Shown here piece by piece: positions 3,648 through 10,295 of a stretch of 15,463 bases of DNA. A model generated the notes under the pieces. It made no database searches. It was not told where the DNA came from and saw only the letters and a list, made by a program, of their open reading frames with translations. Position 1 is the stretch's first letter, and the number at the start of each line of letters is the position of its first letter. The translations under genes were made by a program, and so were the position numbers. The DNA comes from Nitrospinota bacterium (GTDB lineage Bacteria > Nitrospinota > Nitrospinia > Nitrospinales > VA-1), in NCBI GenBank assembly GCA_002731985.1, contig PCCT01000033.1, positions 3,391 to 18,853 of the forward strand, in the 5' to 3' direction.

Positions 3648-3748
3648 TCTCCATGAACCCGGAGTATCGGTTGAGAACCCGCAACCAAATGCGGGTCGGA
3701 TGCCCCTTGATCATTCATCAGCTTGAAAAATGCGTCAATCTTGGCCAT
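3617..3748 (-). pseudogene. pilT: 5' end of pilT (twitching ATPase), truncated
   Basis: The frame starts with ATG at 3748, three bases after the rodZ stop (TGA-ACC-ATG), and runs 43 codons to a TAA at 3619. The first 39 residues, beginning MAKIDAFFKLMNDQGASD and continuing through LVAGSQPILRVHGDMERVK, match the N-terminus of PilT, the ATPase that retracts type IV pili. A full PilT has about 350-370 residues; the Walker A, Walker B and all catalytic parts are missing here. The usual SDLHL motif reads SDPHL, a change expected in a gene no longer under selection. After MERVK the sequence switches to the tail of a TPR gene in another frame. The tight spacing shows that rodZ and pilT were once translated together. 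Confidence 0.75.
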
Positions 3749-3751
3749 GGT

Positions 3752-4675
3752 TCACTCTATGAGTTGAGAGTTAATAATAAATTCTCGCACCACGTCATTT
3801 TCATTCCCTTCCGGCAGGGTCAGGGTCTGATCGTTCAGATTCAATTCAACCAGGTTTCGATCACCTATTGTCATTCTAAAATTATCTTTCCCGTAAAATG
3901 TTTTCGCGGTTCCTTTCGGAAGAATAAAATCCTCCACCCGTGACTCATCTACTGTCATGTTGAACCAGACATTGTCTTTAACCTTGATGGTTAACTTCAA
4001 CGGCAGGTCATTCCCTACAACCGAAGTGGAGCCGCTGTCTTTATTTTCACTTTCTGGGGGATTTTCAACTGGTGGGAGGGGCTCTCCGGATTGGGTATGA
4101 GAAGGTTTTTCTGTGGAGTTTTCTGACTCACCTGTCGTTGTTGATTTGTTGGAAAGTTCATCTACTTCTTTTAAAGAAGTAGATTCATCTTCGATTACCG
4201 TGGCCGACGCTGACAATTCTTTCACTGGTAACTTTTCTATTTCCTTCGGATCTGGTTTCGATACGACTGGTATGGATTTTTTTGAACTACCGCTGAATTT
4301 ATGGATGAGAATATTGGCTCCCCATCCCACTCCAGCTATCAATAATATTGCAAGGACTGACCCGATAATGGATTTTTTGGCTGTCGAAGGCTTGTTATCA
4401 GCTTGACCGTTTTTATTTTCGCCATTTGTAGATGACAGTTTTTCCAATGTGTCATCATACGCATTGAGCATTTCATCTTCATCGGAACCGATGGTTTTGG
4501 CAAAGGAACGGATATACCCTTTAATAAATACCTCTCCGGGTAGTTCATCAAGTTGGTTGTTTTCCAGTGCCTGCAAAAATCGGATATTGATTTTTGTGGT
4601 TGCCGAAATCTCTTCCAGCGAAACTCCTCGGAGCTTGCGCTCGTTTTTCAAATAGGAACCAAAATTTTCTATCAT
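3752..4675 (-). CDS. rodZ: RodZ-like cell-shape protein
   Basis: This 307-residue protein has the RodZ layout. An N-terminal helix-turn-helix (about residues 5-75) contains GSYLKNERKLRGVSLEEIS and the conserved ENNQLDELPGEVFIKGYIRS stretch. A Lys-rich linker leads to one membrane span (about 102-124, IIGSVLAILLIAGVGWGANI). A Ser/Glu/Pro-rich periplasmic linker follows, and then a C-terminal DUF4115-type beta domain (about 228-307; VWFNMTVDESRVEDFILPKG). RodZ couples MreB filaments to the membrane elongation machinery. The ATG start has no strong ribosome binding site, but it gives the standard N-terminus. The gene is led by a good promoter at 4760-4788 and is followed within three bases by the pilT fragment. 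It appears intact. Confidence 0.8.
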   Translation of the reverse strand: MIENFGSYLKNERKLRGVSLEEISATTKINIRFLQALENNQLDELPGEVFIKGYIRSFAKTIGSDEDEMLNAYDDTLEKLSSTNGENKNGQADNKPSTAKKSIIGSVLAILLIAGVGWGANILIHKFSGSSKKSIPVVSKPDPKEIEKLPVKELSASATVIEDESTSLKEVDELSNKSTTTGESENSTEKPSHTQSGEPLPPVENPPESENKDSGSTSVVGNDLPLKLTIKVKDNVWFNMTVDESRVEDFILPKGTAKTFYGKDNFRMTIGDRNLVELNLNDQTLTLPEGNENDVVREFIINSQLIE

Positions 4676-4745
4676 GGTTAGTTCATGGGCCGAATCAAAT
4701 TCAGGTACTCTTGAAGGGTATTAAGTTTTAATTAGTTAGCTTTTC

Positions 4746-4788
4746 TCTCAGTGCTGAGAATTATACCAAATCGAATAACAAGCTACAA
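4746..4788 (-). promoter_or_regulatory. rodZ promoter with a palindrome at the start site
   Basis: On the minus strand TTGTAG (4788-4783) and a perfect TATAAT (4765-4760) are separated by 17 bases. Directly after the -10 box lies TCTCAGTGCTGAGA (4746-4759), an inverted repeat with six-base arms that would cover the transcription start near 4753. A protein bound there would block the promoter, so it is a candidate operator. The leader to the rodZ ATG is about 75 bases. Confidence 0.6.
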
Positions 4789-4790
4789 TA

Positions 4791-5011
4791 TTAAGGGTTT
4801 AAGGTGAACAGCTCATTTTTTTCAAAAATATTAAAAATCTTTAATTTTTTTTCTAAGATTTTTGCTTTATCAACCGATAGATATGGTTGATGGGGCTTCT
4901 TACGTCTTTTTGCGTTGACCTCAATTTTGTTGGTTCGCAAGGCGTTGCATTTAACTGAAACGGAAAAGTCATCATATTTGTTCAAAGGCTATTTTATAAA
5001 TATTGACTAAA
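4791..5011. other. Gap without a supported gene
   Basis: This stretch, together with the rodZ leader, is more than 300 bases without a convincing gene. A minus-strand frame from a TTG at 4985 to 4791 could encode 64 lysine-rich residues, but it lacks a ribosome binding site, resembles nothing I know and lies in AT-rich sequence. I do not call it. Confidence 0.5.
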
Positions 5012-5307
5012 ATTGAAAAGGAGGTGGTGGCCGATAATACCGAAGGTATTAACCTTCAGTAATATGGGTAATCAGATCTTAATCAACGCTATGTTAATGG
5101 CTAAAGATATTTGAAGGTGGCGTAGGTTTAGGTTTGGCTACGGTGTATCAGATTATCCAGAAAAACGATGCCAAACTTGAGGTACAAAGCCAGATAGGCG
5201 AGGGGACATCATTTTTTGTGTTATTTCTAGAGGAAACTTCTTCTCATGATTCCCTGGATCAAACAGACTCAAAAGAGGTTGTTGTAGTTCAGAATGAAAA
5301 ATCCTGA
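5012..5307 (+). pseudogene. Histidine kinase remnant (ATPase domain)
   Basis: Two pieces of an NtrB-like sensor kinase can be read. Frame one (from 5070) gives NQILINAMLMAKD, which matches the N-box where the kinase binds Mg-ATP. Then, after a frame change near 5104, comes IFEGGVGLGLATVYQIIQKN, followed by LEVQSQIGEGTSFFVLF, which matches the F-box and G2-box and the end of the HATPase_c domain. The G1 box (DxGxG) and the usual segment between IFE and GGVGLGL are missing, as are the dimerisation, phosphoacceptor and sensor domains. The tail is polar and stops at 5305-5307. A ribosome-binding-like AAAAGGAGGTGG stands at about 5017-5028, but no start codon serves it. A short perfect hairpin (TAATACC-GAA-GGTATTA, 5035-5051) sits at the left end. 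This gene is dead. Confidence 0.75.
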
Positions 5308-5393: not shown

Positions 5394-5606
5394 ATGCCTG
5401 AAAACTTAGGACCTGAAAAAATAACAGGAGCAAAACAGATAGCATACTGTAACTGTATGCAATCATTTCACTGGCCCCATTGAGATGCTACACACTATTT
5501 GATGGGTGGAGGCGGACCGGATATTATAGACTTGGATGAAAACAAAACTTATATGTTATGTAGATGTTTCAAAAGTAAGAATAAGCCCTTCTGCGACGGT
5601 TCTTAA
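5394..5606 (+). pseudogene. Two-motif CDGSH Fe-S protein with in-frame TGA at a ligand Cys
   Basis: One frame of 70 codons from ATG at 5394 to TAA at 5604-5606 contains two CDGSH-type motifs (CxCxxSxxxPxCDxxH), which bind [2Fe-2S] clusters through three Cys and one His. Motif one has C19, C21, S24, P28, then TGA at codon 30 (5481-5483), D31 and H34; the TGA is exactly where the third Cys belongs. Motif two has C56, C58, S61, P65, C67, D68, G69, S70, and the TAA falls exactly where the ligand His belongs. The frame is otherwise open and family-like throughout, including GGGGPDIIDLDENKTYMLC. Reading TGA as selenocysteine would give a cluster with a Sec ligand; reading it as a stop gives a broken gene. 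I see no convincing SECIS hairpin: the best is a weak CTACAC/GTGGAG stem (5488-5493, 5506-5511). Loss of the second His and the nearby remnants favour decay. Confidence 0.7.
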
Positions 5607-5663
5607 GAAAAATAGAAAACCTTGCCCTGTAAACTCACTAATAAATCGGTCAAAAACATTATC

Positions 5664-6521
5664 ATGAAAATCGATTCCGGGATCGTGTGGAAAAATTTAT
5701 CTCGATACTTAGTTTCATTTGGATTAATCCTTATTTTAAATGGATGTCTTCCCTGGATCACAGGTACTGAGGACGAGATGGTTCTCGTTCCCGAAGGTTC
5801 TTTTGTAATGGGCTACAATATTGAAAATGATGCGGAATGGGGTGACACTGACGAAGAGCCGGTTCACGAAGTATTTTTAAAACCGTATTATATCGATCGC
5901 TATGAAGTGAATGCTTCTGACTTCTCAGACTTTTTAAATAAATATCCAGACAAGGCGTCACGTTATTTTCAAACGGGCTCAGGGGTTACTATCGAAAAAG
6001 TGGATAATGTATTTCGTCCCCGACCAGGCTTGGAAGATTATCCCGCCAATCGAGTTTCATGGTATGGGGCGGATGAGTATTGTCGCTCGATTAATAAACG
6101 TTTACCCACCGAAGCGGAGTGGGAAAAGGCCGCTCGCGGGACTGACAGCAGAGTGTTTCCCTGGGGTGACGACTTTCCAACAAATGAGCGAGTGACATTT
6201 CGACGTAAATTTGTCAAGTTAGGGTTTAGGGCTATGGAACCTGTGCATTCAATGCCAGAGGGGCGTTCGCCCTACGGAGCGCATCACATGGCAGGGAATG
6301 TATGGGAATGGGTTGCCGATTGGTATGAAGACGGTTATTACGAAGAGACACCTTTCGCAAACCCAGAAGGACCGGATTCAGGAATAAGCAAAGTATTACG
6401 CGGTGGAAATTGGTACTACAAAGCCTACTACATGCGAACCACATATCGATTTAATGAAAGGCCGGAAGTATTTAAAATCTGGCAAGGCTTTCGTTGCGCT
6501 GCTGGGCACAGGGCCAGCTAA
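5664..6521 (+). CDS. FGE-sulfatase-fold lipoprotein
   Basis: From the ATG at 5664 this is a 285-residue protein with a lipoprotein signal: basic start, hydrophobic run SFGLILILNG and lipobox Cys at residue 28 (LNGC). The rest is the formylglycine-generating-enzyme (SUMF1/PF03781) fold: MVLVPEGSFVMG near the start, YYIDRYEV, YPANRVSWYGADEYC, KRLPTEAEWEKAARG, FPWGDDFP, GNVWEWVADWY, LRGGNWYY and GFRCA. The copper-binding cysteines of true FGE should stand in the GG(S/N)W segment and five residues later; here both sites are aromatic or other residues (WYYKAYYM), so it should not make formylglycine. Many such proteins act in respiratory or iron-nitrogen metabolism, or have unknown roles at the membrane. 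A TTG 14 codons upstream would extend the frame but has no support. No clear ribosome binding site precedes the ATG. Confidence 0.8.
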   Translation: MKIDSGIVWKNLSRYLVSFGLILILNGCLPWITGTEDEMVLVPEGSFVMGYNIENDAEWGDTDEEPVHEVFLKPYYIDRYEVNASDFSDFLNKYPDKASRYFQTGSGVTIEKVDNVFRPRPGLEDYPANRVSWYGADEYCRSINKRLPTEAEWEKAARGTDSRVFPWGDDFPTNERVTFRRKFVKLGFRAMEPVHSMPEGRSPYGAHHMAGNVWEWVADWYEDGYYEETPFANPEGPDSGISKVLRGGNWYYKAYYMRTTYRFNERPEVFKIWQGFRCAAGHRAS

Positions 6522-6617: not shown

Positions 6618-7165
6618 TTATTTTAGGATTTTTTTTATTGTCCAATCCACGTTGATTTTTTTGTTACAGTATTTAAAAATTGCTTCGCTTAAGGGCATCA
6701 GTGAACAATGGTCTGTTAAAATTTCCGCCTCACTGCAATTTATGATTTCAGTTGGACCGGGACGTTTCCAGGTTGTGAGGGCCCAGTCGAACCATTTTTT
6801 TGAAACAGACATGGATTTTAAGGTAGGTAAATTCCGGCCATTGACACCCGTTTCGTAAACAATATTCTCCCGCCGTTTTTCCAGGGTCGCACCAAGCCCC
6901 ACACTTTCATATTCACTATCCCGGCTGTGAGTTTTCTTTTTTGGAAAGGATAAGTCTTGTCCAGTGAAAATAATCGGATTGGTTCCCGGTTAGAAGGCCA
7001 GATCATAGGCAATGGACAAAACACTTCCACTGCGGGGCACGAAAATTAAGGAAGAATATAACGCCAGCCTGAATATACCCCTTTGAGATAGGGTACCAGT
7101 GCCAAGGTAGAATATCACGAGCTCTTGTATCAGCTATCAAAAGGACTTTATTGGCGGGGGGGGGA
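6618..7165 (-). pseudogene. DUF115 (Maf/MptE-like) gene remnant
   Basis: The minus strand carries consecutive pieces of a DUF115 protein. Reading from the tRNA side: NKVLLIADTRARD (about 7152-7114), then after a frame change near 7050 VPRSGSVLSIAYDLAF, an in-frame TAA (6992-6990), then NPIIFTGQDLSFPKKKTHSR, and finally INCSEAEILTDHC and SLMPLSEAIFKYC to a stop at 6620-6618. These match the order of the family's conserved stretches (DTAxxxLL, SVxxxAxDLA, PIIFxGQDLxF..tH, INATEGG, MPLxEAL). The family includes motility-associated Maf glycosyltransferases and 6-hydroxymethylpterin diphosphokinase-like proteins. At least one frameshift and one stop make it non-functional, and its N-terminal half is absent: homology ends against the tRNA gene. 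A run of nine G (7156-7164) lies at the left end. Confidence 0.75.
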
Positions 7166-9968: not shown

Positions 9969-10295
9969 TTTAACATTGTAGAAATATATACTAATCATCT
10001 GACGGGATATTCTTGGCCGGGAAATATACGGGGACTGGAAAACTCTGTTGAGATAGCCTTGGTCTTGGCTGATAACGAGGAGTTGGATGTGGACTTGTTT
10101 CCTTTGGAAACAACTCAAAAGCCTATCGAGGTAAACGTAGGGTCAACACTTAAGGACGCCAGCGATTCCTTCCGGCGGGCCTTTATAATGAGCACTTTGA
10201 AGTCCACCACGGGGAATCGTACCAAAGCCGCTAAAATTCTTGAAGTCCAACGCTCCTACTTTTCCCGTTTGATCAAAGAATTGGAAATCGATTGA
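9969..10295 (+). pseudogene. C-terminal end of a sigma-54 activator (NtrC family)
   Basis: From about 9996 the frame reads HLTGYSWPGNIRGLENSVEI, then ALVLADNEELDVDLFP. This is the conserved WPGNxRELEN region that closes the AAA+ domain of sigma-54 activators. It continues through a linker to NRTKAAKILEVQRSYFSRL, a Fis-type helix-turn-helix (about the last 45 residues), and a proper stop at 10293-10295. The receiver domain, Walker motifs and GAFTGA loop are absent; upstream is a TAG at 9966-9968, with no start codon or ribosome binding site in the matching frame. A product of 78 residues from a TTG at 10059 would be a free Fis-like domain, but nothing supports its expression. This is best read as the 3' end of a deleted gene. 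A matching kinase remnant lies at 5012-5307. Confidence 0.75.

Follow-up and report, generated by a model that had tools for sequence, protein, structure and literature searches.

A tandem CDGSH frame with two in-frame stops

The stretch of DNA analysed here, hereafter the window, comprises 15,463 nucleotides from the draft genome of a Nitrospinota bacterium. Its forward strand carries the remnant of a tandem CDGSH gene (class II, CISD3/MiNT-like), running from an ATG at 5394 to a TAG that ends at 5615 and matches the end of a homologous protein, P0002. Translation bears out the 70-codon frame at 5394–5606 given in a preliminary description, with TGA at codon 30 (5481–5483, forward strand) and TAA at codon 71 (5604–5606, forward strand); the former takes the place of the third cysteine ligand of motif one and the latter that of the histidine ligand of motif two. 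When the stops are read through, residues 1–73 align with P0002 (E = 4.8e-43), and two zf-CDGSH motifs lie in one chain, the second of which scores 39.3 bits against the Pfam model (cut-off 29.5).

Class II CDGSH proteins (CISD3/MiNT, PF09360), described in PMC5859297 as the dominant bacterial form, are short chains that consist of two CDGSH motifs and carry no further domain. The window copy shares this architecture and differs in having stops for one cysteine and one histidine ligand, such that the full set of three cysteines and one histidine per motif is not found in it. The solved sequences closest to P0002 are 3tbn and human CISD3 (6avj). Since TGA closes five of the window's 11 larger frames, we regard this codon as an ordinary stop here, and its use as a sense codon throughout the genome is unlikely. 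A plasmid search with the DNA of the locus returned zero matches.

Surroundings of the gene and its counterpart in a congener

The neighbourhood is rich in remnants, as had been noted before, with a probable kinase tail, a gene fragment and an activator tail all lying around the CDGSH copy. Directly upstream of the CDGSH frame lies what is probably the C-terminal end of a histidine kinase (5107–5307, forward strand), which matches HATPase_c weakly and below the cut-off (22.1 versus 26.4 bits). Further along, a fragment of an MptE-like gene (6621–7028, reverse strand) matches residues 178–313, the last 136, of a 313-residue frame in another genome (G005), and a sigma-54-type activator is represented at 9996–10295 by its C-terminal part alone, the AAA lid and a Fis-type HTH, with no full gene ahead of it. 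Two intact genes stand among these remnants: an FGE-sulfatase-type gene (5661–6521, forward strand), 86% identical to its counterpart in a genome of the same genus (G006), and a RodZ-like gene (3752–4678, reverse strand). The latter lies upstream of the CDGSH gene and on the same strand in four related loci (L031–L034), and is inverted in the window as part of a segment spanning 3708–4880.

The CDGSH ortholog of G006 (L034:2643-3441, contig C106) is also broken. There, a PAS-domain frame, probably a histidine kinase judging by its H-box motif, continues into the CDGSH sequence in another reading frame, and the first 25 codons of the CDGSH gene are lost; it is the same gene broken by a different route, namely fusion with a truncated PAS protein. 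This PAS fragment has no match within the window. The TPR gene that precedes the RodZ-like gene in G006 similarly lacks a close counterpart in the window; a different TPR gene there is hit weakly, and about 11 first codons match in the DNA.

Codons 30 and 71 among relatives

The question of whether TGA or a cysteine codon is the usual state at codon 30 was addressed at the DNA level, because the products of gene callers end at TGA and protein databases are biased accordingly; the cysteine found at this place in 14 of 14 database proteins is subject to that bias. With P0002 as query (E ≤ 1e-15, stops read through, weaker CDGSH paralogs left out), we searched 64 genomes from the order and found the locus in 32 of them. 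In-frame stops, one TGA and one TAA, occurred only in the window's own genome, with none in the other 31 loci. Codons were read in 29 of these 31, G037 and G040 being counted for stops only. Codon 30 was TGT in 18 and TGC in 11, with no TGA, while codon 71 was CAC in 23 and CAT in six; His34 was kept in 28 of the 29 and replaced by tyrosine in G006. The check proposed in the preliminary description, to look at codon 30 in homologues, thus returned cysteine at every locus read, together with histidine at every codon 71. In a selenoprotein family one would look for a mixture of Sec and Cys homologues with the TGA conserved in some; here cysteine was universal among the 29 and TGA was absent. The window copy instead shows what marks a pseudogene, disabling changes unseen in relatives and the loss of key residues.

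A large protein search gave P0001 as the nearest protein, with 96% identity to the window frame; P0002 is 87% identical and has a complete second motif followed by two further residues. Each of the two contains two PF09360 stretches. P0001 keeps Cys30, and its chain ends ahead of the second-motif histidine, its last residue being number 70 as in the window frame. The closest named relatives in a genome scan were MAGs or genomes of Nitrospinaceae and Nitrospina.

Selenocysteine machinery and folding after the TGA

The machinery for selenocysteine was sought in the window's own genome and 59 relatives, a set of 60 that includes 55 members of the order. SelB and SelD exceeded their cut-offs in the same three genomes, G055, G058 and G059, none of which belongs to the order; neither did so in any of the 55 within it, the window's own included. 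Below the cut-offs, both models matched in all 60 genomes; these weaker matches are presumably to related GTPases and PurM/ThiL-like proteins. The tRNA-Sec model was similarly unselective, giving hits at E ≤ 0.001 in all 60 genomes and hits over its cut-off in 11. Eight of these 11 were checked; the other three, G037, G040 and G041, score 47.1–47.6 bits (cut-off 47). At the tRNA-Sec hits of G055, G058 and G059, ARAGORN called tRNA-SeC; the other eight genomes, all of the order, passed the cut-off narrowly, and the five of them that were checked proved to have tRNA-Leu. In each of these three Sec-using relatives, which share the class, the gene for SelD (G058:C14:7475-8398, G059:C528:2618-3544 and G055:C130:19354-20280) contains one in-frame TGA, as is expected of Sec-containing SelD.

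The window's own genome gave seven matches to the tRNA-Sec model, and the four that were checked are tRNA-Ser or tRNA-Leu, one of them the tRNA-Leu of the window; selA, searched for in this genome only, had no match. This assembly (1.58 Mb, 114 contigs, 65% complete) thus yielded no match to selA, no SelB or SelD over cut-off and no tRNA-Sec among the hits checked, and absence from it would prove little by itself because so much of the genome is missing. G006, which belongs to the same genus and is 95% complete, likewise has no SelB or SelD over the cut-offs.

Minimum-energy folding of the stretch after the TGA revealed no SECIS-like hairpin: three overlapping segments fold like their shuffled versions (z = 0.04, -0.72 and 0.07), in agreement with the earlier remark that no convincing SECIS hairpin was visible. 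Among the CDGSH matches listed for G059, a Sec-using relative from the same class, none contained an internal stop.

Position, order and age of the changes

The preliminary description placed the TGA exactly at a cluster-ligand cysteine. The position stands, and its evidential weight is reduced: in four intact relatives, 11–12 single-step changes would create a TGA, six of them on ligand cysteines, so that a random TGA would strike a ligand about half the time and the coincidence is weak evidence. When changes to any stop are counted, there are 31–32 in the same four relatives, six of them on ligand residues.

For the second stop, the loss of two bases (CA) had been proposed. The alignment with G006 speaks against it, running gapless over codons 28 to 71 and onward past the TAG at 5613–5615, and on this ground we reject a two-base deletion behind the TAA. 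P0002 terminates two residues beyond its second histidine, which fits the same TAG, and from these two observations we conclude that codon 71 differs by substitution. Judging from its length, P0001 probably has the same TAA at codon 71. Because it shares the end at residue 70 yet keeps Cys30, the second-motif histidine appears to have been lost first, with the TGA at codon 30 arising later in the lineage of the window.

The gene seems to have been maintained for a long time before these events. Comparison with four relatives gave dN/dS of about 0.09–0.11, a rough figure given that dS (1.2–1.9) is near saturation; for a fifth relative (G002) dS was beyond estimation. Between the window and G006, 16 of the 26 differences in codons 28–70 fall at third positions. 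These values, rough as they are, suggest that the gene was under purifying selection until recently, which would make the breakage recent as well, and we attribute to this recency the preservation of the frame and of most motif residues after the TGA.

Interpretation of the locus

Taken together, the locus, set in a decaying neighbourhood of a Nitrospinaceae genome, very probably once encoded a tandem CDGSH [2Fe-2S] protein and was inactivated recently. Two ordinary stop substitutions would have broken it, TAA at codon 71 and then TGA at codon 30, and translation is now predicted to stop after 29 residues, ahead of the completion of either cluster site, so that no working protein is predicted. 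The preliminary description had weighed a cysteine-to-stop mutation against selenocysteine, and held that the latter would fall if all close homologues had cysteine at codon 30 and histidine after the second motif and the genome lacked selB and tRNA-Sec. Most of this is what we find. The mutational reading stands, on the cysteine and histidine codons of all 29 loci read and on the lack of internal stops in the 31 other loci, and the selenocysteine reading does not, no SelB or SelD being over cut-off in any of the 55 genomes searched within the order and selA being unmatched in the genome itself.

The case for a Sec-ligated [2Fe-2S] CDGSH protein deserves to be set out nonetheless. Bacterial selenoproteins (TGA plus SECIS, with selA, selB, selC and selD) resemble the window copy in that a TGA replaces a conserved metal-ligand cysteine, and the frame is kept downstream of it as in a Sec gene; a table in a review of prokaryotic selenoproteomes (PMC13188914) includes the CopZ family, a further (2Fe-2S)-binding protein, among those with Sec forms. 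The resemblance ends there, as the window's order has no detected machinery, the checked tRNA-Sec hits of its own genome are serine and leucine tRNAs, the sequence after the TGA has no stable or SECIS-like fold, and the second stop is not a TGA, leaving the end of motif two at its histidine unexplained by selenocysteine. With cysteine at codon 30 in all the relatives read, and the machinery not found in the order, insertion of Sec is exceedingly unlikely, and we reject it on the codons of homologues, the missing machinery and the lack of a SECIS-like fold. We grant it its sliver of probability only because the genome is incomplete: a Sec system acquired by transfer would have to lie in the unassembled third of the genome and serve a CDGSH protein without a typical SECIS and with one complete cluster only, a combination that we consider next to impossible. 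CDGSH occurs nowhere in the main text of that 2026 review (PMC13188914), a count that applies to the main text and carries no wider claim about Sec-containing CDGSH proteins in print, and our search for literature joining 'selenoproteome' with 'Nitrospina' found none.

Two other readings were weighed. The TGA could have entered the MAG as a consensus error or represent a minor strain variant, the population having mainly Cys30 and a gene like that of P0001, ending at residue 70; the close identity, equal length and Cys30 of P0001 speak for this, as does the fragmentary and incomplete state of the draft. We nevertheless think it improbable, and less likely than mutation, at a locus that is surrounded by remnants and already disabled by another change. 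More doubtful still is re-initiation at an ATG in codon 37, where P0001 also has methionine, to give a 34-residue peptide with a single CDGSH motif. Single-motif (class I) proteins do occur in a few bacterial phyla, as stated in PMC5859297, but no Shine–Dalgarno-like stretch is seen ahead of this ATG, and the peptide would be without the histidine ligand that all 29 related loci keep.

The preferred reading, inactivation by stop substitutions, makes the locus a pseudogene formed by nonsense substitution of a class II CDGSH gene. In its well-kept frame, its stops missing from relatives and its adjoining remnants it is like other bacterial pseudogenes of this origin, and we found no difference from them. 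Its importance beyond bookkeeping is slight. It illustrates that a TGA at a ligand cysteine can mimic a selenoprotein, a coincidence to be expected in cysteine-rich metal proteins, and that the locus has decayed by different routes in two lineages of one genus, those of the window and of G006. In another genome (G004; L061, contig C16, 5400–6300), a further CDGSH-type match contains a TAA, and the frames there suggest a second CDGSH gene that is decaying too.
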